Of a DNA stretch of 63,740 nucleotides, positions 40 through 59,066 are shown piece after piece. The DNA is taken from positions 1-63,740 of the forward strand of contig JAPKDL010000009.1 in NCBI GenBank assembly GCA_028822585.1, in the 5' to 3' direction. A program made the position numbers and the translations under genes. Within the stretch, counting starts at the first letter, position 1. Every line of letters starts with the position of its first letter. A model generated the notes under the pieces. It saw nothing but the letters and a program-made list of their open reading frames with translations, did no database searches and was not told the DNA's origin. This DNA is from Alphaproteobacteria bacterium (GTDB taxonomy: Bacteria > Pseudomonadota > Alphaproteobacteria > UBA8366 > GCA-2717185).

Positions 40-1136
40 ATGAAGGTCATAATCTATGGTGGTGGCGTGATCGGTACGTCGATCGCCTATTTCCTGAACT
101 AACGCGGCGTTGAAGTGGTAGTGGTTGAACGCACCGGCGTCGCCGATGCGGCGTCCGGCAAGTCGGGCGGGTTTCTGGCGCGTGACTGGTGCGACGGGTC
201 GCCGCTGGCCCCGCTGGCGCGCCGCGGCTTTGATTTGCATGGATTTCTAGCGAACAGCCTGGACCAAGACTGGGGCTACCGCCAGGTCGAAACGTTGAGA
301 GTAATTGCCAGCGTCCCGAGCGACGTTGGTCCATATCGTAATCTACCCTCGCTCGCGTGGCTTGGGGAAGACGCCGCCGTGTACAGCCAACTCGGGTCTC
401 CGGAGACGACCGCACAGATCAGCCCCACCGCCTTCACCAACGCCATGATGGATGCGGCGATAGACGGCGGCGCAAAGCTGGTCGCGGGGTGCGTTGATGG
501 GGTTGTGCTTTCCCCTGACGGCGACAGAGTTACCGGTGTTATGATCGATGGGGCGATATTGTCGGGTGACGCGGTAGTAATCGCAATGGGGCCCTTTGGT
601 CGGTGCTTGCCTGCCAATGGCTGCAGCTGCCGCCAACAGGCGGCGCGAAGGGCCATAGCCTGGTGTTCGACAACACACCGTCGCCAGAATCGCTGTTCGT
701 TGAGCTTGAAAACGGCGATAGAGAGATGACTACACCGGAGATAAACCCACGCCCCAACGGCACAATCTATGCCTGTGGTTTGCCGGGCGACGACCCCCTG
801 CCCGTTGACCCGGCCCATGTAATCCCAGAACCCGAGGCCAGCGAAAAATTGCGTCAGATGGTCGCCTGCGTCTCGCCGGGGCTTGCCGCGTCCCCTGTGC
901 TTGCGGAACAAAGTTGCTATCGCCCGGTGACGTCGGATGGATTACCATTGATCGGGCCTGTGCCAGGCGCCGCTGGTGCGTATGTCGCGACAGGGCACAA
1001 TGTCTGGGGTATGCTCAATGCGCCCGCGACCGGCGAGGCAATTGCTGAATTGATTGTCGGCGGAGCCGCAGCGACAGTTGACCTTGACCCCTTCAATCCC
1101 GCCCGGCTGGCACCTTTAAAGGGCGGGGCTGTGTAA
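40..1136 (+). pseudogene. Broken FAD-dependent (DAO-family) oxidoreductase
   Basis: The product starts MKVIIYGGGVIGTSIAYFLN, a Rossmann FAD-binding fold. Codon 21 is then a TAA (100-102) where this family usually has a residue before RGVEV, so CAA to TAA is likely. The same frame continues with ERTGVADAASGKSGGFLA and DWCDG, typical of TDA3/glycine-oxidase-like DAO proteins. Near 590-600, after the run IAMGP, the coding frame changes. The rest (LACQWLQLP, SCYRPVTSDGLPLIGP, GHNVWGML) is in another frame up to the TGA at 1134-1136. A GPWSV reading would be restored by removing two bases or adding one. With a nonsense codon and a frameshift the gene is very probably dead, unless both are sequence errors. 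It lies just upstream of an LLM oxidoreductase on the same strand. Confidence 0.8.
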
Positions 1137-1159
1137 TCAAAACAATCAAGGAAGAAAAC

Positions 1160-1966
1160 ATGAAAATCGGCGTTGGAATCCGCAACATGGGACCACAGTC
1201 GACGCGTGAATTATTGACCGCATGCGCGAGCGCTGTTGAAGATATTGGGCTTGAATCGATTTGGATCACCGATCACCTCGCCATTCCCCCCGACGACGCC
1301 GAAGGCAGCGGGGGCCGATACCTGGAAATTTTAACAACGCTTGCCTGGCTGGCGGGAATTACCAAACGCGTGAAAATTGGGTCAGCTGTGTTAGTCCTGC
1401 CGTACCGGGCGGCGCTACTAACGGCGAAGCAGATCGCCACCGTCCAAGAACTCAGTGGCGACCGGCTTGTTGTGGGCGTCGGCGTCGGGTGGATGGACCC
1501 GGAGTTTCAGGCGCTTGGCGTAAATCGTCATGCGCGCGGTCGCATTTCCGATGAAACGCTGGCCTTCTTCAATGACTGTTTTGCACAGGACGAGGTGGAG
1601 GCCAACGATCAGATGTTTCTGTTTAAACCGCGCCCGGTAAAGCCGCCATTCTTGATTGGGGGCCGGGCACCACATGCGCTCAAGCGCGCAGCGACATATG
1701 GCGATGGTTGGTTTCCCGTGGTCAAGGGACCGGAAGACATCGCTTCGGCGTTGCCTGCATATCGCGCGTTGACGAAAGCCGCGAACAGACCACCCGGGAA
1801 CATCACCATTTCAACAAGACTACCCCTGGAAGACCGGTCACAAACTCGCACGCTCTATGATCAATATCAAAGCCTCGGTGTCGACAGGCTTGTCTGTGGC
1901 CTGAGCTACGATACGATTGAGACGTTTCAGGATCAGCTTGATAAACTAAGTCGCGCGCTTTCTTAA
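1160..1966 (+). CDS. Luciferase-like (LLM class) flavin-dependent oxidoreductase
   Basis: This 268-residue protein begins MKIGVGIRNMGP and has the TIM-barrel pattern of bacterial luciferase-like monooxygenases: the SIWITDHL segment near residue 33, the KIGSAVLVLPYR strand near 74, the VGVGVGWMDPEF loop near 110 and the PPFLIGGRAPHALKRAA phosphate-binding strand near 165. Members use reduced FMN or F420 with unknown, usually small organic substrates. A GGAAG element lies upstream of the ATG. The gene follows the dead DAO oxidoreductase and precedes a small protein and a methyltransferase with short gaps, so the three downstream genes may be co-transcribed. The substrate cannot be inferred from sequence. 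No flavin reductase gene is seen in the window. Confidence 0.85.
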   Translation: MKIGVGIRNMGPQSTRELLTACASAVEDIGLESIWITDHLAIPPDDAEGSGGRYLEILTTLAWLAGITKRVKIGSAVLVLPYRAALLTAKQIATVQELSGDRLVVGVGVGWMDPEFQALGVNRHARGRISDETLAFFNDCFAQDEVEANDQMFLFKPRPVKPPFLIGGRAPHALKRAATYGDGWFPVVKGPEDIASALPAYRALTKAANRPPGNITISTRLPLEDRSQTRTLYDQYQSLGVDRLVCGLSYDTIETFQDQLDKLSRALS

Positions 1967-1981
1967 CCGTAGGTGAAACGC

Positions 1982-2302
1982 ATGTCTCAATCTTCCTCTA
2001 ACTCATCAGCTCCAGATATTAGCTTGAACGGATTTAGCGACCCGAAGGACGCCCGCATGCTTGGCGTGGTCATGGCGCTAGCCAGCGAGGTGTATGTCCT
2101 TAAAGCCGAAGTTCAACGTCTCACCGAAGCGTTGGGGCAAGGTGACCTCATCGATAATGAGGCGCTCGAAGCGGCGGGGCAGTCGGAGGTGATGGCGGCG
2201 TGGCTTGCGGCTGAACAGAAAAACTTCAGCGCCGCGATATTACAGCCGTGGCTGGAGCCGGACGAGGTCTCTGACGTGCGGCATCTGATGTCCGAAGAAT
2301 GA
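1982..2302 (+). CDS. Small uncharacterised protein paired with a methyltransferase
   Basis: This protein of about 106 residues is not recognised. I chose the ATG at 1982 over a GTG at 1973 because AGGTG lies six bases upstream of it. It opens with a Ser/Asn-rich stretch, then a helical segment (EVYVLKAEVQRLTEAL) suggestive of a short coiled coil, followed by an acidic region rich in Ala, Glu and Asp. There are no Cys residues, signal peptide or membrane segments. It is 18 bases upstream of the methyltransferase at 2321 and 15 bases downstream of the LLM gene. A partner or subunit role for one of these is possible but is only inferred from position. Confidence 0.6.
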   Translation: MSQSSSNSSAPDISLNGFSDPKDARMLGVVMALASEVYVLKAEVQRLTEALGQGDLIDNEALEAAGQSEVMAAWLAAEQKNFSAAILQPWLEPDEVSDVRHLMSEE

Positions 2303-2320
2303 ACGGAAAAGAATGACCTT

Positions 2321-3397
2321 ATGTCAGCAAACATCCGACCAGATCAATCGTTTCAAGCCGCGGCGTTCAACGGATTTATCCATGGCCTGAAAGGCGTGTG
2401 GCGCGAAGAACTCTACAGTAATGTTGTCGCGGAAGCTCGCGAGACCGACGCAAATGACGTCCCGGAATTGGAACGCGCCATGGCTGGCTCCGCTCAATAC
2501 GAGATGTATGCCTGGCTGGAGCGCTTTACCCAGCAGATGTCGCTTGTTGCGCGATGGGGCGCATATAACGATCTCGAACCACAAATGAAAAAACTCTCCG
2601 CGCAATTGGACGCCGCCGCGGCACAACACCCTGAACGTCTAAACCTCGACCCGGCGCTGCCATTGCCATCCTACCTGACCGAACAGGAAACCCACCAATA
2701 TCTCGGAGGGTTGTGGGAAAGCGATATCGGCGGTTACACGTTGGAGAGATTGACCGAGAAGGCGAGTTTTTCGCTAAACTCTCCCGAGCGTCCGCTCTCC
2801 TGGTATGCCGAATTTTTACGCGATACTTTGAAACCGTCGCGCATCCTAGACCTTGGCTGCGCCCGGGCGCGCGGAACGCGGGCGTTAAAAAGAGCCATGC
2901 CGGATACTGAAATTCACGGGTGCGACCTCTGTGGCCCCCTTCTTCGACTGGCGCATTTGCGCAATATCGAAGAAGACCTCGCGATCACCCTATGGCAACG
3001 CAACGCTGAAGACACAAACTTCGACGCAGCAAATTTTGACCTGGTGACATCACACTGGCTCATCCATGAAATGCCACCCGCTGCCATTCGCAACATGATC
3101 GCTGAAGGATGGCGGTTGCTTCAACCGGGCGGAACATTCGCCATGTATGACATGTACCTGACGCCGGGCGGGCTCATTGGTGAATGGCTACATGCAGGAT
3201 ATGCGGCGCGGAACAACGAACCCTTCGCCTACTCGATTACAAATATGGACTTAAAGGCAGACTTGGAAGCGGTTGGCTTTACCGATGTGCAAGTCGAGCT
3301 GTCACAATTGCAGGCGACGCCAGAAGCACTTCGCGGGGAATTGCCCGACGGTCGCCTTCATTACATGTCGGTCATTACAGGACGCAAACCAGCGTAA
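2321..3397 (+). CDS. Class I SAM-dependent methyltransferase
   Basis: This 358-residue protein has a Rossmann methyltransferase core. Motif I is RILDLGCARARGT near residues 174-186, with Ala-Arg where the usual GxGxG has glycines. EIHGCDL follows as the acidic end of beta 2, then FDLVTSHWLIHEMP (motif IV/post-I) and LLQPGGTFAMYDMY (beta 5). The first 130 residues or so are a helical domain I do not recognise, with HGLKGVWREELY and a run of charged residues. The substrate is unknown. It follows the small protein at 1982 and ends 18 bases before a convergent monooxygenase gene. A weak AAACC/GGTTT hairpin followed by T residues overlaps its 3' end and could end transcription. Confidence 0.8.
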   Translation: MSANIRPDQSFQAAAFNGFIHGLKGVWREELYSNVVAEARETDANDVPELERAMAGSAQYEMYAWLERFTQQMSLVARWGAYNDLEPQMKKLSAQLDAAAAQHPERLNLDPALPLPSYLTEQETHQYLGGLWESDIGGYTLERLTEKASFSLNSPERPLSWYAEFLRDTLKPSRILDLGCARARGTRALKRAMPDTEIHGCDLCGPLLRLAHLRNIEEDLAITLWQRNAEDTNFDAANFDLVTSHWLIHEMPPAAIRNMIAEGWRLLQPGGTFAMYDMYLTPGGLIGEWLHAGYAARNNEPFAYSITNMDLKADLEAVGFTDVQVELSQLQATPEALRGELPDGRLHYMSVITGRKPA

Positions 3398-3414
3398 GGC
3401 CGGTTTTTTCAAGG

Positions 3415-5055
3415 TTAGAAGAAACTTAATTCCTTATATCCCCCGGCGGCGACCTCGTCGCACCTGCCACGATATTCCGGCGCGGTGCCGCTGTAACGGA
3501 CAATGGTGCGGGTCTGTTTGCCTTCGACGTTCATATTGACGCCAGTCATCCATGAATCGATTTCATTCGCCAGGAGCCCTTCGGCCTTTTCGTGCACGAA
3601 GGCGTTCCATTCGTCGACCGATTCTGAAAGCGCCTCCGTAACAGTCAAGTTTCGCTCCGACATATGGCCGATCAGGTCGCGAACCCATTCGACATTGTAT
3701 TCGATGCTACGGGGGTTGTTCCCAAGCGCGGCGTGAGGGCCCATGATCATGAACATGTTGGGGAAACCGTTGACCATGACGCCGACAAATGTCTTGGGGC
3801 CGCCCCCCCATGCGTCCGTCAGACGATGATCATCCACGCCGCGAATATCGATGCGGTCAAAGCTGCCGGTCACCGCGTCAAAACCCGTCGCGTAGACAAT
3901 GACGTCAAATTCGTAATCTTGCGCGCTGGTGCGAATACCGGTTTGCGTGATGCGCTCGATTGGTTCGTCCAACATACTGACAAGTGTCACGTTTGGTTGA
4001 TTGTAGACTTCGTAATAATTCGTTTCCTGCGGAACCCGGCGGGTGCCGAAGCCGTGGTCTTTCGGAATCAACATTTCCGCCACTTTTTGGTCTTTCACAC
4101 GACCGCGGATCTTGTCAGCGACAAAGTCCGACATCAACTTGTTGGCTTCACGATCGATCAGCATGTCACGGAAGTTGCCCTGCCAGATCCCAAAACCTTG
4201 CCCGGCGTAACGCTCTTCCCAAAATGCGATGCGTTCCGCCTCGCTCACTTCAAACGTCCCGCGCGGGTCTATATTGTGAATAAAACAGGCCGAGGTCTCA
4301 CGGCAAAGCTGAAACAATTCGGGATAGCCCGCCCGTATTTCAGCCATTTCATCTTTTGAAATTGGCCGATTGTGAAGCGGCGTACACCAGTTTGGCCGGC
4401 GTTGATAGACCGTCAGATGTCCTGCTGTTTTTGAAATTTCCTGGATCGCCTGTACGCCACTGGCGCCGGTCCCAACCACCGCCACACGCTTGCCGCTGAA
4501 GTCTATCCCCTCTTTTGGCCAAAGCCCTGTGTGGCGCCATGCGCCTTGGAAATTTTCAACACCCTCGAACCGCGGCATGGTCGGCGCGGATAACAGTCCA
4601 ATCGCCGTGACCATATATCGGGCGCGATAGCACGCGCCATCGGTCAGTTGAATTACCCAGCATTGACCCGCCTCATCAAAGTGTGCCGCCGTCACCTGGG
4701 CGGAAAATTCGATGTCTTTGCGCAAGTCGAATTTGTCTGCAACGAAGTTGCAATAACGTTCAATTTCCGGCTGTCCGGAAAATTGTTCACTCCAGTCCCA
4801 TTCATCCAGCAACTCCTGGGAAAAGGAAAACCCGTAGGAATAACTCTCCGAATCGAAGCGGGCGCCGGGATACCGGTTCCAGTACCAGGTGCCGCCAACC
4901 CCCGTCCCGGCTTCCAGGACACGCACTCGCAACCCCATCTCCCGCAAAAGGAAAAGCTGATACATCCCCGACATTCCGGCGCCGATGACAATGGCGTCAA
5001 AATCCAATTCCGCAGAACCTTGTACCTGCGTGTCCACATCCTGAATGGCTGTCAT
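3415..5055 (-). CDS. Flavin-containing Baeyer-Villiger type monooxygenase
   Basis: This protein of about 546 residues carries an N-terminal FAD Rossmann motif (VIGAGMSGMY), the GVGGTWYWNRYPGARFD block common to cyclohexanone-monooxygenase-like enzymes, the Baeyer-Villiger fingerprint FQGAWRHTGLW (FxGxxxHxxxW) and a second NADPH Rossmann motif (VVGTGASGVQ). The C-terminus has the usual CDEVAAGGY segment. Such enzymes insert oxygen next to a ketone, or oxidise heteroatoms, using NADPH. I start it at 5055 because GGGGA lies just upstream of that ATG; another ATG is at 5070. It is divergent from the NtaA-type gene at 5176, so a shared control region lies in 5056-5175. A related enzyme is encoded at 18069. 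Confidence 0.88.
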   Translation of the reverse strand: MTAIQDVDTQVQGSAELDFDAIVIGAGMSGMYQLFLLREMGLRVRVLEAGTGVGGTWYWNRYPGARFDSESYSYGFSFSQELLDEWDWSEQFSGQPEIERYCNFVADKFDLRKDIEFSAQVTAAHFDEAGQCWVIQLTDGACYRARYMVTAIGLLSAPTMPRFEGVENFQGAWRHTGLWPKEGIDFSGKRVAVVGTGASGVQAIQEISKTAGHLTVYQRRPNWCTPLHNRPISKDEMAEIRAGYPELFQLCRETSACFIHNIDPRGTFEVSEAERIAFWEERYAGQGFGIWQGNFRDMLIDREANKLMSDFVADKIRGRVKDQKVAEMLIPKDHGFGTRRVPQETNYYEVYNQPNVTLVSMLDEPIERITQTGIRTSAQDYEFDVIVYATGFDAVTGSFDRIDIRGVDDHRLTDAWGGGPKTFVGVMVNGFPNMFMIMGPHAALGNNPRSIEYNVEWVRDLIGHMSERNLTVTEALSESVDEWNAFVHEKAEGLLANEIDSWMTGVNMNVEGKQTRTIVRYSGTAPEYRGRCDEVAAGGYKELSFF

Positions 5056-5175
5056 GTGTCCCCGTTGCATTGAATTGTTTCAATCCTTGACCGCATCATT
5101 TGAGCGGCACCTTTTCTGATCTTGGTTTCGCACATATCATACCGAAGCGGGATGATGAATACAGGGGGCGACATA

Positions 5176-6519
5176 GTGGCGACGCAAACATCAACAAAAG
5201 TACCAATGTTGAGGTTGGGCGCATTCATGCGACCCGTCAGCATTCACACGGCGGCGTGGCGTTATCCGGGCGGCACGCCTGATGCGAATTTCAATCTCGA
5301 CCAAATCGTCCAATACGCGCAGACGCTCGAACGAGGCTGCTTCGACGCCTTCTTCATGGCGGATCACCTGGCCGTCCTCAACATGCCAATGGACGCGTTG
5401 AAGCGAAGCGCAACCGTAACCTCGTTCGACCCGCTGACACTGCTGCCGGCGCTGGCGATGAAAACTCGGCGATTGGGCTTGATCGCGACCGCGTCCACGA
5501 CTTTCGAGCCGCCCTATTTGATCGCGCGGCGCTTTGCATCCCTTGACCATATCAGCGGTGGGCGCGCCGGTTGGAACATGGTAACGACGTCAAATCCCGA
5601 CGCTGCGCGCAATTTCGGGCATACGGAACAGATGGAGCATGGCGAGCGTTATCGCCGCGCGCGGGAATTCTATGACGTTGTAACAGGTCTATGGGACAGC
5701 TGGGCGGAGGACGCGTTTGTTCGCGATGTTGATAGCGGCGTCTTTCTGGACCCGGACCGAATGCATGTCCTCGATCATGAAGGTGAATTTTTCAATGTGC
5801 GCGGCCCGTTGAATATTGCCCGACCCGTGCAGGGCTGGCCCTTGATTGTACAGGCGGGCGCATCGGAGGCGGGCAAACAATTGGCGGCGGAAACCGCCGA
5901 GATGGTGTTTACCTCGCAGCGAACCTTAGAAGACGGAAAGGCTTTCTACGCCGACGTCAAAGACCGAATGGAGTCCGTGGGACGCTCTCGCGACCACATG
6001 AAAATCCTCCCTGGCGCGCTGGTTGTCGTCGGCGATAGCGAAGCCGAAGCGCGGGAGAAACGGGCGCTGCTCGACAGCCTGGTTCATTATGACAGCGGCG
6101 TCGCGTCGCTTTCAATCGCGTTGGGACAAGATGCGTCAGCCTTTGATCCTGACGGTCCATTGCCGCCTATCCCCGAAACCAACGCCGGGAAAAGTGGCCG
6201 GGACCGGGTGATAAAACTGGCGCGAGATGAAGGCTTGACCGTTCGGCAATTAGCGGGGCGCTACGGGGGTCACGCGGGCCTCGCCATGGTGGGCACAGTA
6301 CACAGCATCGCCGATGAAATGGAGACCTGGCTTATGGAATCGGGCTCCGATGGTTTCAATGTCATGTTTCCCTATCTTCCTGCCGGCCTCGACGATTTTG
6401 TCGACAAAGTTGTCCCTGAACTTCAACGCCGTGGTCTATTTCGCACTGAATATGAAGGCGTCACGTTGCGCGAGAACCTTGGATTGCCGCGACCGGAGAA
6501 CCAATTTTTTAAACCCTAA
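5176..6519 (+). CDS. NtaA/SnaA/DszA-family FMN-dependent monooxygenase
   Basis: The protein belongs to the nitrilotriacetate/pristinamycin/dibenzothiophene monooxygenase branch of the luciferase-like superfamily. It shows MRPVSIHTAAWRYPGG at the N-terminus, FMADHLAV, the signature HISGGRAGWNMVTT with the SNPDAARNFG loop, and PLIVQAGASEAG. Known members use FMNH2 from a separate reductase to cleave C-N or C-S bonds. I favour the GTG at 5176 because AGGGGG precedes it, giving about 447 residues; in-frame ATG codons at 5152 and 5155 are alternatives. It is divergent from the BVMO gene and followed by an extended-SDR gene, probably in the same transcript. No reductase partner is seen nearby. Confidence 0.85.
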   Translation: MATQTSTKVPMLRLGAFMRPVSIHTAAWRYPGGTPDANFNLDQIVQYAQTLERGCFDAFFMADHLAVLNMPMDALKRSATVTSFDPLTLLPALAMKTRRLGLIATASTTFEPPYLIARRFASLDHISGGRAGWNMVTTSNPDAARNFGHTEQMEHGERYRRAREFYDVVTGLWDSWAEDAFVRDVDSGVFLDPDRMHVLDHEGEFFNVRGPLNIARPVQGWPLIVQAGASEAGKQLAAETAEMVFTSQRTLEDGKAFYADVKDRMESVGRSRDHMKILPGALVVVGDSEAEAREKRALLDSLVHYDSGVASLSIALGQDASAFDPDGPLPPIPETNAGKSGRDRVIKLARDEGLTVRQLAGRYGGHAGLAMVGTVHSIADEMETWLMESGSDGFNVMFPYLPAGLDDFVDKVVPELQRRGLFRTEYEGVTLRENLGLPRPENQFFKP

Positions 6520-6563
6520 TATCCAATCGCTTATATCGCGGTGACAAATTCAGGAAGAAAGAC

Positions 6564-7439
6564 ATGGCAAAACGACGCATATTGATCACGGGCGCTTCGG
6601 GAGAAATCACGCGGCAACTGCTCCCCACATTCCGGGATCGCTACGACCTTGTCTTGCTCGATACCCGCCCCAGCGAACACGCCAACGACATCATTGACGT
6701 CGATGTCAGCGACCCGGACATCGACAAATACCGCGAACATTTCAAGGGCGTCGACGCCATCGTTCACAATGTTCGGTCGACCAAACCCGGCGTCAAAACC
6801 AACGCGCCGCGGCAATGGCTCAAAGAGCGATCTGGATCAGAGCCCGCTGAGGGCTATTTTGTGGAACGGAAAAGCGTCGATATGGCGTTTAACGTGCTTC
6901 GTCTGGCGATGGAGGAAAATATCCGCCGCGTCGTCATTACATCGTCCAACCACGCCGCCGATTGGTATGAAACCAAGCTGCATAATGGTCAACTCGACAC
7001 CATTGGTCCGGAAATCTACCCGCTATCGGATAATTTTTACGGCTGGGCCAAGGCGACGTACGAGCATCTCGGGTTTTTGTTCGCGACTGGACGGCTGGGC
7101 CACGCGGTGGAAAATGTGCAAGTTCGGGTCGGTGCCCCGCGCCCGATCCGTGCCGCTGATTTCGACGGCGACCAAGTCAGCTACAAGCGTGACCTGGGCG
7201 GCTATATCAGCGAGCGCGATATGCGCCAACTCTACACCAAGGCGATCGAGGCCGAGGATATTCGCAATGAAGACGGCATTCCATTTCAGGTTTTCTATGG
7301 CGTGTCCAACAACACACGCGGGTTTTGGAGCATCGCTAACGCCCGGAAAATAATTGGCTACGCGCCGGAAGACGATTCGGAAATCGAGTTTGGCGATGAA
7401 ATCCGTCAGCATTTAACGACCAATGGTCGGACAATGTAA
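6564..7439 (+). CDS. NAD-dependent epimerase/dehydratase (extended SDR, uronate-dehydrogenase-like)
   Basis: This 291-residue protein starts with ILITGASGEITRQL, a TGxxGxxG-type nucleotide-binding motif in which the last Gly is replaced by Thr. It has SSNHAADWY near residue 130 and a catalytic YGWAK (YxxxK) at about residue 156. The overall pattern resembles the uronate dehydrogenase and NAD-dependent epimerase group. AGGAAGAAAGAC gives a good ribosome site for the ATG. It lies 44 bases after the NtaA-type monooxygenase and probably acts on the product or substrate of that step, although this is only inferred from position. The substrate is unknown. Confidence 0.8.
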   Translation: MAKRRILITGASGEITRQLLPTFRDRYDLVLLDTRPSEHANDIIDVDVSDPDIDKYREHFKGVDAIVHNVRSTKPGVKTNAPRQWLKERSGSEPAEGYFVERKSVDMAFNVLRLAMEENIRRVVITSSNHAADWYETKLHNGQLDTIGPEIYPLSDNFYGWAKATYEHLGFLFATGRLGHAVENVQVRVGAPRPIRAADFDGDQVSYKRDLGGYISERDMRQLYTKAIEAEDIRNEDGIPFQVFYGVSNNTRGFWSIANARKIIGYAPEDDSEIEFGDEIRQHLTTNGRTM

Positions 7440-7455
7440 CGGCGTAGAAGGCCGG

Positions 7456-7828
7456 TTAGCCAGGCATCTTGGAGAAGCCTGTTAAATCAGGATCTATCGG
7501 CGTCGACAAAATGTTGCTGTCCAGATAGACGTTGATCGAGGGTGCCACCAAGGATGTTTGATCCAAAACGGCGGAAAATGGACCCGTCCCCGATGGCTTG
7601 TACGAGATAGTCGCGCATTTTCCCTGAATTTCCGCCCGGCGACTCGTAAGCGACATAGCGCGCCTTGATGCGTTTATCGGTAAAAGAGATGGGTTGCGCT
7701 TCGGCATAACGCGTCACCAACGCCTGCCCCAGCCCGGACCCGCCCGCGACCAGGGTCATGGCGGCCGCGCGACTTAGAAAGTCCCAGCGTTGCATCGCCC
7801 CATGACAATATTCGTCATAGACGATCAT
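7456..7828 (-). pseudogene. Truncated, frameshifted dienelactone hydrolase-like gene
   Basis: Reading leftwards from the ATG at 7828, the frame gives MIVYDEYCHGAMQRWDFLSR, an Ala/Gly-rich signal-like stretch, then ISFTDKRIKARYVAYESPGG and MRDYLVQ. That is the N-terminus of secreted dienelactone-hydrolase-family proteins. At about 7597 the frame slips by one base, and PSGTGPFSAVL continues the match in the next frame. The similarity then stops; the expected catalytic Cys/Asp/His core of this family of about 290 residues is missing. The remaining codons to 7456 give no recognisable sequence. It is a 5' remnant of a lost hydrolase gene, converging on the SDR gene at 6564. The 165 bases between it and the LLM gene at 7994 show nothing coding. 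Confidence 0.65.
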
Positions 7829-7993
7829 ATATCCAGGATTCTATTTTTTCTTGTTCCACCATGCGCCATCCTTTTAGCTCTCGTTATTTGGTACCACTAA
7901 AATATTTGCCCCCCCAAACACGCTACAAGTCCCCAATAGCCATTCGGGATGATCCAAAAATATTTTTCTGGATCTTATTAATTCATTGATGAT

Positions 7994-9058
7994 TTAGTCC
8001 TGGAAGCGGGGGATCACTTTTTCTCCGATGAGGTCGATGGATCGCATCACCTGGTCGTGGGTGGTGTCGCCGGCCTGGATCATGAAGATCATTTGGTCGA
8101 TGCCGGTGGACGCCCAGTTCTCCACAGTCCGGCAGAATGTGTCCGGATCGCCGCCAATCGCCATGCCATTGTCAATCAAATCATCGTTGCTAAGCCCCGA
8201 CATGCGCGCCTTCACCTTTTCGACGCCGCCCGCCGTGGCGAAGCGCACCGGGTTCAGTTCCGCGTCGTTATCGCCGTAATACCAGCGCGCAGCCGCGCAG
8301 CCCACATCGCGGCCTACCTGGTCGTCCTTGTCACAATAGCCAATACCGAAGACAGCCGTTTTGTGGTTTGGTTTTCGGGCAATAAAATTTGCCGAGTCCG
8401 TCGCCTTGACCGTGGCGTGATACTTGGCGACAGCGGCTTTGACGTCGGGAATGGAACTGCGCGTGACGCCGACCACGCCGAAGCCCTGGCTCGCCGCATG
8501 TTCATATGTTTCCAGGTTGGAGGCGGCGGTCCACAGCGGCGGGTGTGGCCGCTGAATATGGCGCGGCACCATATGCCGCGGCGGCAGGTTCACATGTTTG
8601 CCCTGATATCCTTCGAAATAATCCGCGTCGAACATTTTAAGGACCGCATCGAGATGTTCCTGGGCGACCTCGCGGCTCTCCGATGGATCAAGGCCCATGC
8701 CTTCAGCTATATAACCGCTGGTGCCCCGACCGGTGCCAAATTCCACTCGACCATTGCTGAGCACGTCGAGCGTGGCGACGCGTTCCGCGATGCTAACCGG
8801 ATTGTGGATAGGCATGAGAACGACGCCGAGCGCCAACCGCAGGGTCGTCGTGCGCTGACTGAGCGCCGCCAGGTACATATCGGGCGCGGGCGAGTGACCA
8901 ATTTCAATGAAGAAATGCTGTTCCGTGATCCAGTAATACTCAAATCCCGCCGCTTCCGCCGCAACGCCTTGATCAAGCCCATTCCAGAACGCATTACGTT
9001 CAGAGGTTTCGGTCCAGGGCCGCGGTATCTGCAGTTGCGTCATAAAACCGAATTTCAT
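7994..9058 (-). CDS. Luciferase-like (LLM class) flavin-dependent oxidoreductase
   Basis: This 354-residue protein begins MKFGFMTQLQIPRPW and has the long-form luciferase-like pattern: WITEQHF near residue 46, LGVVLMPIHNPVSIAERVATLD near 80, GRVEFGTGRGTS near 105 and PPLWTAASNLETYEHAA near 175. This resembles alkanal monooxygenase alpha-type proteins that use FMNH2. It is one of four LLM enzymes in the first 11 kb and differs from the other three in length. It is transcribed leftwards, downstream of the ectC-like and metallophosphoesterase genes with a gap of 47 bases, so the three could form one transcript. The substrate is unknown. Confidence 0.85.
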   Translation of the reverse strand: MKFGFMTQLQIPRPWTETSERNAFWNGLDQGVAAEAAGFEYYWITEQHFFIEIGHSPAPDMYLAALSQRTTTLRLALGVVLMPIHNPVSIAERVATLDVLSNGRVEFGTGRGTSGYIAEGMGLDPSESREVAQEHLDAVLKMFDADYFEGYQGKHVNLPPRHMVPRHIQRPHPPLWTAASNLETYEHAASQGFGVVGVTRSSIPDVKAAVAKYHATVKATDSANFIARKPNHKTAVFGIGYCDKDDQVGRDVGCAAARWYYGDNDAELNPVRFATAGGVEKVKARMSGLSNDDLIDNGMAIGGDPDTFCRTVENWASTGIDQMIFMIQAGDTTHDQVMRSIDLIGEKVIPRFQD

Positions 9059-9105
9059 TTTTGTGCTCCAATTTTCTTATTTTAGGTGTCTACCGAGCCC
9101 ATTCG

Positions 9106-9498
9106 TTAGCCTGTGTTTTCGACCAACGGATAACCGCCGGACGCGTCCCGTGTCTCCGTGCCTACCAAAGCCGGGTTGAAGACGCAAATCAGTTCAAGCT
9201 CCGTTTCCGACCGCAACACATGCGCGTCGTGTTGGTCCAGGGCGTATATCGTACCTTTTTGGATTGGATGCACCTGGCCCGTGGACTCGTTCTCAATGTC
9301 GCCGCGCCCGGCAACGCAGTACACCGCTTCCAAATGATGTTGGTAGAGCATGCGTATCTCGACGCCGGGTTTCAGCACGGTCACGTTAAGCGAAAATCCC
9401 ATGCCGTCTTCCGCCAACAGCAACCGGGTGCTTTCGCTGCTGGACGATTCTACACGGCGGCTAGTTTGTGCTTCGTCTTCGAGGTTTCGAACAATCAT
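9106..9498 (-). CDS. ectC: Orphan ectoine synthase-like cupin
   Basis: This 130-residue protein matches ectoine synthase along its length: MIVRNLED at the start, STRLLLAEDGMGFS, HHLEAVYCV, YALDQHDAH and CVFNPALVG. The expected iron ligands Glu57, Tyr85 and His93 are present, as are Arg25, Asn38, Thr40, Tyr52, His55, Cys105, Phe107 and Glu115. The positions usually Trp21 and His117 are Ser and Arg here. EctC closes N-gamma-acetyl-diaminobutyrate to ectoine, but no ectA, ectB or ectD gene is in the window, so the natural substrate is uncertain. Its ATG overlaps the stop codon of the metallophosphoesterase (TAATG), implying translational coupling. Confidence 0.85.
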   Translation of the reverse strand: MIVRNLEDEAQTSRRVESSSSESTRLLLAEDGMGFSLNVTVLKPGVEIRMLYQHHLEAVYCVAGRGDIENESTGQVHPIQKGTIYALDQHDAHVLRSETELELICVFNPALVGTETRDASGGYPLVENTG

Positions 9499-10361
9499 TA
9501 CAACGGCGCTCCCTTCAAAAGGGGTGGTAACTTGGTGCTGGAGCCATTCGCCGACATCCAGTTGCGCAAATCGTGATTGATGAAGCGCGGCGGCTCCACG
9601 AGTTCATGACTGAAAGTACGGCCCTGGAACCGGTAGTGGACATACCCAACGCGCCGCGTGAGCTGGGCACCTTCGGACGGAACCAGCGAGTTGATGAAAG
9701 AGGTAGGCGGCGCCCATATTAATCGCGTCCCAGCGTGTCGCGTGCTGCGGTAGCAATGGCGATGGCCGCTTGCCACTAACTTCACACGGTATTGTTTGCA
9801 CAGCGAGAGAAGCCGCTTGCGGCTTTTCGGCCACATGCTGCTGAGGGTGCGCCCGGTTTCACCAACGTCGTGAAGGTAAAGTGGTTTGTGGATCAGTAAA
9901 GCGATGGCACGACCGTCCGCTCTGGCGAGGGCGTTGCTTAAATGCGTCATCTGCAATTTTTCAGCCGCGAGACCGCTCTCCATGAGCTGCGCGTTAAGGC
10001 CTATAAACCGCCAATCGCCCAAATCCTCTACCCAGAAATCTAAACCGAAGCGTCGCAGGTAGCGGGTGCGTCGTGCGGTCGTGATCGGCCCCTTCAACCG
10101 GAGGTCTGGCGACGTGTCGCCAATGTCATGGTTCCCGGGAATAGCACGCCAGGGCGCGGGCAAACGTTCCAACTGGCTAAGAGCATAAGTAAGGTCGTCT
10201 TCGTTCTTCGCGCCATTGAAGCACATGTCTCCGGTGACGAAGATAAAGTCGGGCCGTTCCACCTGCATGGCGTCGATGAAGGCTTCCCAATTGTCTTGGA
10301 AGTAACCCCAACCACGGCTGAGATGCATGTCCGACACTTGGATGATGTTGAGTATGGACAT
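9498..10361 (-). CDS. Metallophosphoesterase (calcineurin-like)
   Basis: This protein of about 287 residues has the complete dinuclear-metal set of calcineurin-like phosphoesterases: SDMH near the N-terminus, VTGDMCFN, IPGNHDIG, the LLIHKPL histidine and the ASGHRHCY motif. The fold and length fit small phosphodiesterases that act on cyclic nucleotides, glycerophosphodiesters or phosphoesters. I use the ATG at 10361; an upstream TTG at 10385 is possible. It directly precedes the ectC-like gene with overlapping stop and start codons, an unusual pairing. It is divergent from the LLM gene at 10551, and 10362-10550 must hold both promoters. The substrate is unknown. Confidence 0.85.
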   Translation of the reverse strand: MSILNIIQVSDMHLSRGWGYFQDNWEAFIDAMQVERPDFIFVTGDMCFNGAKNEDDLTYALSQLERLPAPWRAIPGNHDIGDTSPDLRLKGPITTARRTRYLRRFGLDFWVEDLGDWRFIGLNAQLMESGLAAEKLQMTHLSNALARADGRAIALLIHKPLYLHDVGETGRTLSSMWPKSRKRLLSLCKQYRVKLVASGHRHCYRSTRHAGTRLIWAPPTSFINSLVPSEGAQLTRRVGYVHYRFQGRTFSHELVEPPRFINHDLRNWMSANGSSTKLPPLLKGAPL

Positions 10362-10550
10362 AAATGTGCTTTGTCCCCTGTTCAATGTTTACGCGCCCCT
10401 CGTAATGCCTGACGCCCTGGACAGCTTGACCAAACTCTAGCGTCGAACAAGGCAAATAAAAACATGGGGTCGCCAGGAGGGTGGCCATGGAATAGGCAAC
10501 GCGATACGGTCGACGTAGAATTAGCTGCGACCTATTTGAAAGGATTCGAC

Positions 10551-11393
10551 ATGAATATTGGCGTATCGGTGCCTTTACCCGCCTATAATATTGATCCCGC
10601 CTTCATGGCTAAAAAGGCCGAGGATCTTGACTTTGACTCCATCTGGTATGCGGAACACCCCGCCGTGCCTGTGCATTCCGACAGTCCGTTTCCCGCCACT
10701 GGCGGCGAAATTCCCTGGACCTATTCCCATTTCACCGACCCGTATATTGCTCTGGCACGCGCCTCGGCGGTGACCAGCCGCATCAAGCTGGCGACGGGGA
10801 TCACTTTAGTACCGGAACGCAATCCCCTGTTGCTCGCCAAGGAAGTTGCCACGCTTGATCTTTACAGTGGCGGCCGGTTCTTGTTTGGCATTGGGACCGG
10901 TTGGTTGAAAGAGGAGACCGAGCTTATGGGCGGCGATTTCGCGCATCGGTGGACCCAAACCCGCGAAGCCTTAGAGGTGATGAAGAAGCTCTGGACTCAG
11001 GAAGAAGCCGAACATCACGGCAAATATTTCGATTTTCCCCTCGTGCGATCCTATCCCAAACCAGTGCAGAAGCCGTATCCGCCAATCCTGATTGGCGGCA
11101 TGGCGAAGAATGTGTTGCAACGGGTCGTGGACCATGCCGATGGCTGGATGCCCAACCGGGTGACGCCGAAAATGTTAACCGACAGCCGCCGCCAACTCGA
11201 CGAATTGGCCACCGCCGCCGGGCGTGATCCAAAAGCTATTACCATCACCGTATTCGGCCAGGCACCCGACAAAGCGTTGTGCCAATCTCTGTTGGATGCA
11301 GGCGCGAACAGGGTCGTGGTGAAGCCCGAATACGTCGAGACCGAAGCGGAAATGGGCGCGCAACTGGAACGTTTTGCTGCGGCGCTATTTTAA
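10551..11393 (+). CDS. F420/FMN-dependent LLM class oxidoreductase
   Basis: This protein of about 280 residues begins MNIGVSVPLPAYNIDPAF. It has FDSIWYAEHPAVP near residue 30, IKLATGITLVPERNPLLLAKEVATLD near 80, GRFLFGIGTGWLKEE near 110 and PPILIGGMAKNVLQRV near 180, all typical of the short LLM subfamily often annotated as F420-dependent. AAAGGA lies upstream of the ATG at 10551, which is preferred over any longer reading from 10464. An SGNH hydrolase gene follows 21 bases after its stop, suggesting an operon. Cofactor and substrate cannot be read from the sequence; FMN is as likely as F420 in an alphaproteobacterium. Confidence 0.85.
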   Translation: MNIGVSVPLPAYNIDPAFMAKKAEDLDFDSIWYAEHPAVPVHSDSPFPATGGEIPWTYSHFTDPYIALARASAVTSRIKLATGITLVPERNPLLLAKEVATLDLYSGGRFLFGIGTGWLKEETELMGGDFAHRWTQTREALEVMKKLWTQEEAEHHGKYFDFPLVRSYPKPVQKPYPPILIGGMAKNVLQRVVDHADGWMPNRVTPKMLTDSRRQLDELATAAGRDPKAITITVFGQAPDKALCQSLLDAGANRVVVKPEYVETEAEMGAQLERFAAALF

Positions 11394-11414: not shown

Positions 11415-12575
11415 ATGAATATGGACAGACATTGGGTCGGCACTTGGGCCGCTGCACCGGCACCGAGCGAGGCTGGCGTGGGTTTCAATAACCACACCTT
11501 GCGGATGAACCCACGGATCAGCATCGGCGGCGACACGGTGCGGGTGCGGGTGTCGAACGCCTATGGCGTGGGTCCCCTTGCAATTGGTGCCGCCTCCCTT
11601 GGCATTCGAGATGAAGGCCCGGCGATCCAGCCCAGCTCCGCGCGCACGCTAACCTTTGGCGGCGACGAGTCGGCGACAGTCGCGACGGGATCGTTCGTGA
11701 TCAGCGACCCAATCGCCCTCGACGTGGCGCCGTTGGCTGATTTGGCTATTTCCATCTATCTGCCCGGCGAAATTCCACCCACATTTCAAATCACTGGACG
11801 TTACGCCCGGCAAACCAATTACATTTCACCGCCGGGGAATTTTTCCGCCGACACCAATATGCCCGTGGGCAAGATTACCGATGAATGGTTTTTCGTCAGC
11901 GGTGTTGATGTGTTGGCGTCACAGGAAACCGGCGGCGTGGTTGCACTTGGCGATTCGCTGACCGACGCTAATATCTCAACCCATGATTCGTACAACCGTT
12001 GGCCAGATCAACTTGCCCGGCGGTTGATCACACGGTCTGGGGGGCGGACGGAAGGGCGGGCGCTAGGCGTGATGAACCAGGGTCTCGGCGGCAATCGGAT
12101 ACTGCACGATCTGCGCGGTGACAGCGGGGTGCGACGGTTTGATCGCGATGTGCTCGCGCAGCCCGGCGTCACGCACGCCATCGTCATGTTGGGCACCAAC
12201 GACCTACGCAACCGGCACGCCCGGCCTGGTGAGGAGGTCACCGCCGCGCGAATGATCGCGGGGCTGAACCAGATGGCGATGCGGGCGCAAACACGCGGCA
12301 TCAAATTGATCGGTGCCACGCTGACGCCGTTTGGCAATGAGACATATTTGTCCGGCGCATGGAACCCGGAGCGCGAAGAACATCGCATCGCAGTCAATGC
12401 CTGGATCCGAGACAGCGGCGCGTTGGATGGCGTCGCCGATTTTGATGCGGCGTTGCGCGACCCCGAGCGCCCAACTCAAATGTTGCCCATCTTCGATTGC
12501 GGCGACGGCCTTCACCCCAGCGACCTTGGCTATCGCAAAATGGGCGACGCTATCGACTTAACTTTACTCGATTAA
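11415..12575 (+). CDS. SGNH/GDSL-family hydrolase
   Basis: This 386-residue protein has an N-terminal beta-rich domain (HWVGTWAAAP, VRVRVSNAYG) followed from about residue 175 by an SGNH hydrolase core. Block I is ALGDSLTD with the nucleophile Ser, the Gly block is NQGLGGNRI, block III is MLGTNDLR with Asn, and block V is DGLHPSDLGY with the catalytic Asp and His. Such enzymes hydrolyse esters of lipids or carbohydrates. There is no clear signal peptide, so a cytoplasmic location is likely. It follows the LLM gene at 10551 and probably shares its transcript. Its last 12 bases overlap the end of the convergent dehydrogenase gene. Confidence 0.85.
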   Translation: MNMDRHWVGTWAAAPAPSEAGVGFNNHTLRMNPRISIGGDTVRVRVSNAYGVGPLAIGAASLGIRDEGPAIQPSSARTLTFGGDESATVATGSFVISDPIALDVAPLADLAISIYLPGEIPPTFQITGRYARQTNYISPPGNFSADTNMPVGKITDEWFFVSGVDVLASQETGGVVALGDSLTDANISTHDSYNRWPDQLARRLITRSGGRTEGRALGVMNQGLGGNRILHDLRGDSGVRRFDRDVLAQPGVTHAIVMLGTNDLRNRHARPGEEVTAARMIAGLNQMAMRAQTRGIKLIGATLTPFGNETYLSGAWNPEREEHRIAVNAWIRDSGALDGVADFDAALRDPERPTQMLPIFDCGDGLHPSDLGYRKMGDAIDLTLLD

Positions 12576-13448
12576 CTTGACGCCGCCTTTCGCCGCGACA
12601 TGTTGAATGATGGCGATGGACCATTCTTTGTCGCCGCCATTCTCCAAGGCATCTTTGTAGATATCCAACAGGTGTGCGCCAGTGTCGGTCGGCGTGCCCA
12701 GTCGTTTCGCTTCGTCCAGCGCCGCTTTGGAATCCTTATATGAAATATTCATATTGCCGCCGCCGACCAACGTCCCGGAGCGGATTGCATCTCCGATGCT
12801 ACCCTCGATCTGCTGATTGCGGCCTGTGCTGACACTTAGAACGTCGATCATTGTCTTGGCGTCGAGCCCGAATTTAACGCCCATGGTCAATCCTTCAGCC
12901 GTCGAAATCTTGGCGACATTGCCAAGATAGTTGTTAACCACCTTCATCATTTGTCCATTTCCTGGATTTTCTCCCAGGAAGAAGACATTCTTACCGATGG
13001 CATCGAAAGCGGGTTTGACCGTGTCGAACGCGTTTTTCGGGCCCGATGTCATAACGGACAGCGTTCCGGCCGCAGCGCCCTTGGTCCCACCACTGATCGG
13101 CGCATCGAGCATTTGTATTTGCGCGCCTTCGATGATGTCGCGAACCTCTTTGGCGACGGTTGGCCCCGTTGTCGATTGATCCACATAAATGCGGATCGCC
13201 GAACCGCGCGAGGCCTCTCTCGCGACGTCAAACGCTGCAGCGACCGTGTTCAGGCACACCATCACTATATCGGCTTGATTGGCGACATCCAAAACACTGT
13301 CAGCTTGTTTTGCGCCCGCCGCCACCAAATCATCGACAAGATTTTGCTGAAGATCGTGAACGATTACGTTAAAGCCCGCCTTGACGAGGTTTCGCGCCAT
13401 CGGGCCGCCCATCGCCCCGATGCCAATATATCCAATTGTTTTGTCCAT
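12564..13448 (-). CDS. NAD(P)-dependent beta-hydroxyacid dehydrogenase
   Basis: This 294-residue protein begins with IGYIGIGAMGGPMARNL, the Rossmann motif of 3-hydroxyisobutyrate/tartronate-semialdehyde/6-phosphogluconate-type dehydrogenases. It has the substrate-binding DAPISGGTKGAAAGTL block near residue 118 and a catalytic Lys in GQMMKVVNNYLGN near residue 168. These enzymes interconvert beta-hydroxyacids and semialdehydes. It lies 23 bases downstream of an SDR gene on the same strand, so the two form a likely two-gene dehydrogenase operon. Two other members of this superfamily are encoded at 51672 and 52647, but they are more like each other than like this one. Confidence 0.87.
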   Translation of the reverse strand: MDKTIGYIGIGAMGGPMARNLVKAGFNVIVHDLQQNLVDDLVAAGAKQADSVLDVANQADIVMVCLNTVAAAFDVAREASRGSAIRIYVDQSTTGPTVAKEVRDIIEGAQIQMLDAPISGGTKGAAAGTLSVMTSGPKNAFDTVKPAFDAIGKNVFFLGENPGNGQMMKVVNNYLGNVAKISTAEGLTMGVKFGLDAKTMIDVLSVSTGRNQQIEGSIGDAIRSGTLVGGGNMNISYKDSKAALDEAKRLGTPTDTGAHLLDIYKDALENGGDKEWSIAIIQHVAAKGGVKLIE

Positions 13449-13471
13449 TGCCTAATTCCCCAATTTTTTGA

Positions 13472-14257
13472 TTAGCGCGCCGTATATCCACCATCGACAA
13501 CGACTTCCGAGCCCGTCATGAAGGCCGAATCATTTGATGCCAGGAATAGAATTGCGTTGGCGATATCAAGGGGTTTTCCGAAACGTCCCAGCAAATTCCG
13601 GTTCTCCATGAATTCTTTGATTTCGTTCGGGCTCATATTGCTAGTGGCCAGAATATCGTCCTGCATCGGCGACTCCGTTGCGCCGGGGTGCACTGAATTG
13701 CAGCGTATGTTGTAGCCGCGCCCCCGCACCTCAATCGCCGTCGACTTGGTGAATAACCGAACGCCGCCTTTAGTCATGCTGTATACCGCCGACGTCGCCG
13801 ACCCGACCAGACCCGCGGTTGAAGACAAATTGACGATGGAGCCGCTATCGGCGTCAGGGGGACGGGTCTTCATGGCACCAATCGCATGTTTTGTGCCAAG
13901 GAAGACCCCCTTTAAATTGACGGCACAAAGCTTGTCAAAATCCTCAATCGTGGTCTCCTCAATCACCCCGCGCGCCCAAACGCCAGCGTTGTTAACCAGA
14001 ATGTCAAGGCCGCCATACTGCTTTACCGTTTCGGCGACAACCTGCGCCCATTCGGTCTCGCTTGTCACGTCATGCCGAAAAAAGCAGGCCACGCCGCCTG
14101 CCTCGTTAATTACGTCGGCCATGGCCTTGCCATCGCGTTCCAGCAGATCAGTGATGACAACCTTAGCCCCCGCTTTGGCCAGTAACTTGGCAGTCTCGCC
14201 GCCAATGCCCCGGGCGCCGCCTGTGACAAGCGCTACTTTACCATCCACACGATTCAT
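13472..14257 (-). CDS. SDR-family oxidoreductase
   Basis: This classical short-chain dehydrogenase of about 261 residues shows the cofactor motif TGGARGIG near residue 12, DILVNNAGVWARG near residue 90, a catalytic Ser in NLSSTAG and YSMTKGG (YxxxK) near residue 160, and the C-terminal VVVDGGY segment. The ATG at 14257 is preferred because GGGAGAAGGG lies just upstream; an earlier in-frame ATG at 14302 would add 15 residues. It precedes the beta-hydroxyacid dehydrogenase gene with a 23-base gap, and both may act in one pathway. It is divergent from the GMC oxidoreductase at 14495. The substrate is unknown. Confidence 0.88.
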   Translation of the reverse strand: MNRVDGKVALVTGGARGIGGETAKLLAKAGAKVVITDLLERDGKAMADVINEAGGVACFFRHDVTSETEWAQVVAETVKQYGGLDILVNNAGVWARGVIEETTIEDFDKLCAVNLKGVFLGTKHAIGAMKTRPPDADSGSIVNLSSTAGLVGSATSAVYSMTKGGVRLFTKSTAIEVRGRGYNIRCNSVHPGATESPMQDDILATSNMSPNEIKEFMENRNLLGRFGKPLDIANAILFLASNDSAFMTGSEVVVDGGYTAR

Positions 14258-58310: not shown

Positions 58311-59066
58311 TTAGTTAGGCACGATGCGAGAGTGCGTCGTTACCTTACCATTCGCCGCGACATCATGCAGTTGGTAAATCGGGACCGCCTGTAAATGTGC
58401 AGCGTCGACACCCCACCGCAGATCGCACGCGACGCTCGCCATTGTCGTCGCCTCGGACTCTGCCCATAATTGTTGAGATGACCGATGACAATGGCCGCAC
58501 ATTAACCGTTGAACCTGACGGTGTTTCGCAACAATCTTGGCCAATGCAGCTTGATCCGCCGCATCTTCATACCCATCGACGTAATGCGTTCCAACGTTAA
58601 ACGGCGGGTGGTGAATGAACAGAATTGTAGCGCGATCAGGTTCCGCCGCCAACGTGTCGTCCAGCCACTGAATTCGATCCTGACAAAACGCGCCTTTCTG
58701 GCGCCCAGGGATAATGGAATCCAATGCAATGAGACGAGTCGGAAAACCATCAAACACATGATGCAGAAAAGGCTCCTGGCCATCAGCGTCGCGAAAAAAT
58801 GTACGGAAATTATCACGATCATCCCGATTGCCCGGCGTCAGATAGATTGGCGGTTTGAGGGGTCTCAACAAATCGGCGAGATGTTCATAGTCCGCAACTG
58901 CGCCGGTTTGCACCGTGTCGCCAGTATGGATCACAAGATCAGGGGTCACGTCGAGGCGGTTAATGTCAGCCACACAGCGACGCAACCCCTCGGCTCGTGT
59001 CGCCGCCTCGGGAAGCTCCGATGACAACGCCAATATATGAGTGTCAGAAATTTGTGCGATCCGCAT
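58311..59066 (-). CDS. Metallophosphoesterase (CpdA/GpdQ-like phosphodiesterase)
   Basis: This 251-residue protein has the dinuclear-metal motifs MRIAQISDTHIL, VIHTGDTV, TPGNRDDRDNF, FIHHPPF and MCGHCHR. GNRD replaces the usual GNHD, as known in GpdQ and CpdA-type class III phosphodiesterases. It probably hydrolyses cyclic AMP or a glycerophosphodiester. It is followed by an NTF2-like gene. A strong terminator separates it from the aprA gene upstream on the same strand. Confidence 0.88.
   Translation of the reverse strand: MRIAQISDTHILALSSELPEAATRAEGLRRCVADINRLDVTPDLVIHTGDTVQTGAVADYEHLADLLRPLKPPIYLTPGNRDDRDNFRTFFRDADGQEPFLHHVFDGFPTRLIALDSIIPGRQKGAFCQDRIQWLDDTLAAEPDRATILFIHHPPFNVGTHYVDGYEDAADQAALAKIVAKHRQVQRLMCGHCHRSSQQLWAESEATTMASVACDLRWGVDAAHLQAVPIYQLHDVAANGKVTTHSRIVPN

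Follow-up and report, generated by a model that had tools for sequence, protein, structure and literature searches.

An orphan ectoine synthase-type cupin with a Ser21/Arg117 signature and its conserved monooxygenase neighbour

Ectoine synthase, EctC, closes the ring of ectoine, a stress protectant. The role of orphan ectoine synthases, that is, EctC proteins encoded without EctA and EctB, is described as an unsolved question in PMC5924519 and PMC6344544. The window analysed here, the whole stretch of 63,740 nucleotides, comes from the draft genome of an uncultured alphaproteobacterium (G000; 3.8 Mb, 265 contigs, 95.7% complete) and raises this question through an ectC-type gene on the minus strand. 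The gene follows one for a metallophosphoesterase and is itself followed by one for a luciferase-like flavin monooxygenase, LLM (Table 1). A sequence-only reading of the locus had proposed that the protein, together with the phosphoesterase, may close the ring of another N-acetylated or phosphorylated compound. We ask here which neighbour persists with ectC and on what its product may act. Positions used in the argument were derived from tblastn or from frame-aware ORF picking. The region around the locus (1160-11393) is rich in oxidation genes, with four LLM genes and a Baeyer-Villiger-type flavin monooxygenase within about 10 kb, and a GDSL lipase and dehydrogenases adjoin the oxygenase genes.

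Table 1. Features of the ectC locus in the window
Feature	Positions	Strand	Remarks
Calcineurin-like metallophosphoesterase	9498..10361	-	ATG, 287 aa; 295 aa if possible TTG start at 10385
TAATG overlap between the phosphoesterase stop and the ectC start	9496..9500	-	one base common to both
EctC-type cupin, Ser21/Arg117 variant, iron ligands kept	9106..9498	-	ATG start, 130 aa
Luciferase-like flavin monooxygenase (LLM)	7994..9058	-	354 aa; same strand, 47 bases downstream of ectC

The orphan cupin and its substitutions

In profile searches, the window EctC scored 168.7 bits against Pfam Ectoine_synth (PF06339, cut-off 27) and 168.2 bits against the NCBIfam model PRK13290 'ectoine synthase' (NF009806, cut-off 128), which agrees with its original description as EctC-like. 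It aligned over its full length with the solved EctCs 5bxx and 5onn (133 and about 124 bits, respectively). A Foldseek search with its AlphaFold2 model (mean pLDDT 89.1, with a C-terminal lid of low confidence) returned solved ectoine synthases as matches 1-8, and the DMSP lyase DddK came next.

Residues were compared with those of 5bxx, 5onn and 145 other EctC domains in a table of 148 rows. Duplicate loci of one gene and LLM-only or EctB-only loci were dropped beforehand; two of the 147 domain matches, which did not span the model, were left out, and some five genes remain represented by two rows. The iron ligands Glu57, Tyr85 and His93 are present in the window EctC and are invariant across a 35-row alignment. 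Ser23, Arg25, Asn38, Thr40, Tyr52, His55, Cys105, Phe107 and Glu115 are kept as well. The protein has Ser21 in place of Trp, Arg117 in place of His and Ala119 where most have Glu, and its N-terminal part contains no Trp. The retained ligands and the changes at positions 21 and 117 had been read correctly from the sequence beforehand. The combination of Ser21 and Arg117 was found in 6 of the 148 rows: the window, G003 and G004 (family f1, in a genus other than the window's) and G037, G038 and G039 (family f4). Outside this six-member clade, every row with a residue at position 117 has His, except for one tandem domain with Tyr.

All six clade proteins keep the iron ligands, Glu115 and His55. 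Trp21 and His117, described as conserved in functional EctCs in PMC6344544 and PMC4795551, are replaced by Ser and Arg in all of them, and of the six residues that contact the substrate according to Czech 2019, five are present (R25, N38, T40, Y52 and E57) and Trp21 is missing. According to PMC6344544, Trp21 is conserved in 437 cluster-borne EctCs and also in 145 orphans, in places shifted by two residues. Table 1 of PMC4795551 gives 26% activity for the Trp21Ala mutant and 44% for the His117Ala mutant of Sphingopyxis alaskensis EctC, and PMC6344544 gives 9.7% for Trp21Ala in the Paenibacillus lautus enzyme. Since these single mutants are partly active, some residual ectoine synthesis by the window EctC is conceivable.

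The window EctC is a true orphan. It is the single EctC of its genome, and tblastn detected neither ectA nor ectB in the 63.7-kb window, in line with what had been noted at first sight. The genome-wide searches of G000 that had then been advised returned no EctA (G000 being the sole genome searched in this way for EctA) and no EctB above the cut-off; the best EctB-like match scored 169.4 bits where 552.2 are required, and matches below that cut-off occur in all 14 control genomes as well. EctB above the cut-off was found in none of the six clade genomes vs all five canonical controls. By type of EctC, ectB was located near ectC at 72 of 77 Trp21 loci, 0 of 6 Ser21/Arg117 loci, 0 of 5 tandem-domain loci, 0 of 36 shifted-Trp loci (with two weak matches) and 1 of 7 Trp-less loci, several loci including no more than some 1.5 kb of flank to either side. 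Ectoine catabolism was considered for the window genome and rejected, as no DoeA ectoine hydrolase was found in G000 above the cut-off (best match 28.8 bits vs 613). Among 120 records of plasmid EctCs, three regions were opened: those of Sinorhizobium fredii and Sphingobium have ectB beside ectC, and that of Rhizobium sp. N1314 carries a solitary ectC without the partners seen at the clade loci.

In a phylogeny of 137 non-identical rows, the six Ser21/Arg117 EctCs formed one clade with support of 100/99. The best tree places this clade next to 42 mostly alphaproteobacterial EctCs of the Trp21 type (95/89), so that descent from canonical EctC appears favoured. The deeper placement is not firm, because the alignment has 130 columns and the AU tests reject none of the alternatives, namely a position outside all Trp21-type rows (p 0.33), a grouping with the shifted-Trp orphans (p 0.33) and one with the Trp-less rows (p 0.15). 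Comparison of the window ectC with that of G004 gave a dN of 0.17 and a dS of 1.16, with no stops, while G003 and G004 are nearly identical (dS 0.11). The gene evolves under purifying selection, and a two-residue signature fixed in a clade under such selection fits a substrate other than N-gamma-acetyl-diaminobutyrate (N-gamma-ADABA).

The searches also retrieved EctC proteins of about 280 aa that carry two EctC cupin domains in one chain. Arrays of such domains occur in L143 (G346:C81, 35-3340; eight successive domains) and L144 (G377:C106, 9090-13095; six domains), and tandem-domain genes were also seen in G001, G155, G257, G301, G421 and others. Those included in the tree are devoid of the N-terminal Trp and lie on one side of a branch supported by 100/99. 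Genes for AstE/AspA-type deacylases lie beside them, three in tandem in L144 (5151-8480) and two in L205 (G301, 11519-13766), and one such deacylase weakly matches DoeB, the ectoine-breakdown deacetylase (26.7 bits, cut-off 402.7). In L148 (G155:C55, 2796-8657), a tandem-domain gene lies less than 6 kb from genes for an M24 hydrolase, an NtaA-like LLM and an arginase-family protein; the best match of this M24 hydrolase is ectoine hydrolase, at 143 bits and below the cut-off. No report of tandem-domain EctC proteins was found in the literature searched, most subscription papers lying outside its scope.

Neighbours of ectC across the order

The phosphoesterase ORF matched Pfam Metallophos with 63.2 bits and contains the D-x-H, GNHD and GHxH motifs. 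Its stop codon overlaps the ectC start codon by one base, just as the sequence-only reading had described. The search that this reading had advised, for EctC-phosphoesterase pairs in other genomes, showed the pair to be unique to the window genome among the genomes seen. Orthologues of the phosphoesterase (E at most 1e-20) were detected in 10 of the 43 genomes of the order, the window's included. In the other nine they are encoded on contigs without an EctC of the Ser21/Arg117 clade; all five remaining clade genomes carry the gene on another contig, and four genomes (G032-G035) have it with zero EctC matches. The pairing is, therefore, local. The phosphoesterase was rejected as a functional partner and, to judge from this distribution, is a bystander. 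The case also shows that what looks like translational coupling at one locus may be misleading if relatives do not keep the two genes together. A second ORF resembling a calcineurin-type phosphoesterase (CpdA-like by eye) is located at 58311-59066 of the window, unlinked to ectC.

The neighbour on the other side, which the sequence-only reading had not mentioned, is the more informative one. It scored 141.4 bits against Pfam Bac_luciferase (PF00296, cut-off 27.9) and reached no subfamily cut-off among its best 25 NCBIfam matches. Orthologues with 53-88% identity were present in 7 of the 43 genomes, comprising the six clade genomes and G002; matches of 36-37% in other genomes were excluded from this count as members of a separate subfamily. 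The LLM gene adjoins ectC in all six clade genomes, which belong to two families. In the window, G003 and G004, the two genes are co-directional, with a gap of about 50 bases. They are divergent in G037-G039, where an EmrB-type efflux gene follows ectC and where, in G038, a LysR gene lies between the pair; an operon is, thus, not universal. Apart from LLM paralogues, no other flanking gene was common to the window, f1 and f4 loci. Across the 43 genomes, six contained both EctC and the LLM orthologue, one had the LLM alone, none had EctC alone and 36 lacked both (Fisher p 1.1e-6, with no correction for kinship). Two genomes of the same genus, G005 (62% complete) and G006 (90%), are among those lacking both, indicating that the pair is accessory.

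The LLMs paired with the six EctCs do not form one clade (AU p 7.0e-5, or 0.0018 with G002 added). Given that the EctCs do, either the pairing was renewed, the LLM having joined EctC twice, or the LLM was replaced in place, and the association is not one unchanged inherited block. LLM genes are very numerous in the window genome (71 first-look candidates, 48 of them scored), as the cluster around the locus illustrates. Such neighbours are, therefore, cheap, and the argument from linkage rests on orthology over six genomes. On this basis, the LLM gene, not that of the phosphoesterase, is the lasting conserved neighbour of ectC. No report of the EctC-LLM pair was found in the literature searched, a scope that excluded most subscription papers. 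Flanking the pair on the side of the LLM gene, L137 (G039, 3103-8337) and L135 (G038, 702-7643) contain conserved UbiX/UbiD-like, glyoxalase-like, alpha/beta-hydrolase and old-yellow-enzyme genes; in L137, a cupin-like protein (by eye, with no Pfam match) adjoins a second LLM at 11543-13095.

LLM orthologues without a Ser21/Arg117 EctC are commoner than paired ones. Besides that of G002, eight such loci were found in seven of the 385 genomes of the class, the window's not counted, and none of them lies beside an EctC; the search of 398 genomes of the phylum added no further orthologue. In G266 and G409, both EctC-free, an M24 hydrolase gene is located directly upstream of the LLM gene on the same strand. 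The two M24 proteins are 67% identical. Of the NCBIfam models, that for ectoine hydrolase fits them best (143 and 154 bits), with scores so far under the cut-off of 575 that they indicate a relative of that enzyme, not a member of its family. The M24 gene beside the LLM gene at these two loci is suggestive in that ectoine hydrolase works on the same ring as EctC; at the other seven of the nine LLM-only loci, the stretch fetched contained no M24 gene. The contexts vary otherwise, with an agmatinase-family gene near two of the orthologues and a Cupin_2 gene beside one, the last lying divergent from the LLM orthologue in L189 (G163, 9109-10954). The orthologues outside the order were, therefore, rejected as a guide to the substrate, no single pathway being common to the eight loci.

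Candidate functions

We tentatively propose, at somewhat less than even chances, that the clade consists of neofunctionalised, iron-dependent EctCs acting on a substrate other than N-gamma-ADABA in one pathway with the adjacent FMN monooxygenase. The evidence consists of the fold family, the residue changes, the orphan status, purifying selection, the adjacency of the LLM gene and the non-conservation of the phosphoesterase; from it we infer catalysis, its direction and substrate, a catabolic role and a pathway common with the LLM. Iron-dependent EctC chemistry would be kept, with an N-acyl diamino compound cyclodehydrated to a cyclic amidine or, in the reverse direction, a ring opened. EctC is promiscuous in both directions, forming ADPC from glutamine and hydrolysing homoectoine, in work cited in PMC6344544. 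The substrate is probably not N-gamma-ADABA, given that all clade members carry Ser for the Trp21 'piston' and Arg for His117 in the lid. Loss of the piston would leave a roomier pocket, and Arg117 may meet an anionic group of the substrate. The LLM would oxidise the heterocycle or its open form, EctC and LLM forming an accessory module that is probably catabolic or modifying. That this module is an undescribed route for an ectoine-like cyclic amidine, in which the EctC-derived ring-forming or ring-opening cupin feeds the LLM or is fed by it and an M24 ectoine-hydrolase-like protein takes the place of the cupin elsewhere, is a more specific idea that we regard as rather doubtful.

Other explanations concern the cupin itself. 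It could still be an ectoine synthase using N-gamma-ADABA imported from outside the cell, an idea put forward for Pseudomonas syringae; according to the review PMC5924519, the solitary ectC of this species enabled a Halomonas ectC mutant to produce ectoine. The kept ligands and five substrate contacts would allow this, as would the 10-44% activity of the published single Ala mutants at positions 21 and 117. We nevertheless consider it improbable: all six proteins share the fixed Ser and Arg at these two positions, EctAB is absent from the window genome and EctB from the other clade genomes, and the consistent pairing is with an LLM, an enzyme type without a known role in ectoine synthesis. Alternatively, catalysis may have been lost; the protein could then be a cupin with a role in binding or regulation, or the decaying remnant of an ect cluster. 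Trp21, His117 and Glu119 are gone, the modelled lid is of low confidence, and PMC4795551 describes a flexible lid in S. alaskensis EctC structures; set against the low dN relative to dS, the intact reading frame and the retention of the iron ligands and Glu115/His55 in all six proteins, such a loss seems quite unlikely.

The remaining explanations concern the neighbours. EctC and LLM may be functionally unrelated and adjacent through inherited synteny or by chance in LLM-rich genomes, which would agree with the abundance of LLM genes, the near identity of G003 and G004 and the origin of the six genomes in two families only. This is unlikely in our view, given that the pair persists while other common neighbours were lost, that its orientation differs between the families and that the LLMs come from different branches. 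As for joint action of EctC and the metallophosphoesterase on a phosphorylated compound, the TAATG overlap suggests translational coupling in the window genome, but in none of the five relatives does the gene lie beside ectC, its orthologues being on other contigs and four of them in EctC-free genomes; we hold this to be very improbable. Of the substrates first envisaged, one other than N-gamma-ADABA, thus, fits the signature, while the phosphorylated alternative had been drawn from adjacency in this genome. Read as neofunctionalised EctCs working with the LLM, the clade offers a testable lead on orphan EctCs: the two signature residues and the oxidative partner gene are both fixed, which points to a defined class of substrate and to two genes that can be co-expressed.

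Relation to known systems

The closest known system is ectoine synthase itself, solved from S. alaskensis (5bxx/5by5) and P. lautus (5onm/5onn/5ono). The window EctC resembles it in the cupin fold over the full length, in the iron ligands and in Arg25, Thr40, Tyr52, Phe107 and Glu115, and differs in Ser21, Arg117 and Ala119, in the absence of ectA and ectB and in the LLM gene beside it. Orphan EctCs of Pseudomonas, Burkholderia, Rhizobium and others (groups 1-3 of Czech 2018) are likewise encoded without EctAB. The 36 orphan loci seen here, most of them from actinomycetes such as Streptomyces, encode proteins that retain His117 and a Trp in shifted position, whereas the window EctC has neither, and in the best tree they branch apart from its clade, a joint group not being rejected by the AU test given above. 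RutA is an LLM oxygenase that opens the pyrimidine ring of uracil, and ectoine is a tetrahydropyrimidine; the likeness of RutA is one of chemical analogy, for the window LLM does not belong to the RutA family, which is absent among its 25 best NCBIfam matches. The ectoine hydrolase DoeA/EutD, an M24 protein of a fold unrelated to EctC, opens the ectoine ring, and its distant M24 relative adjoins the LLM orthologues of G266 and G409.
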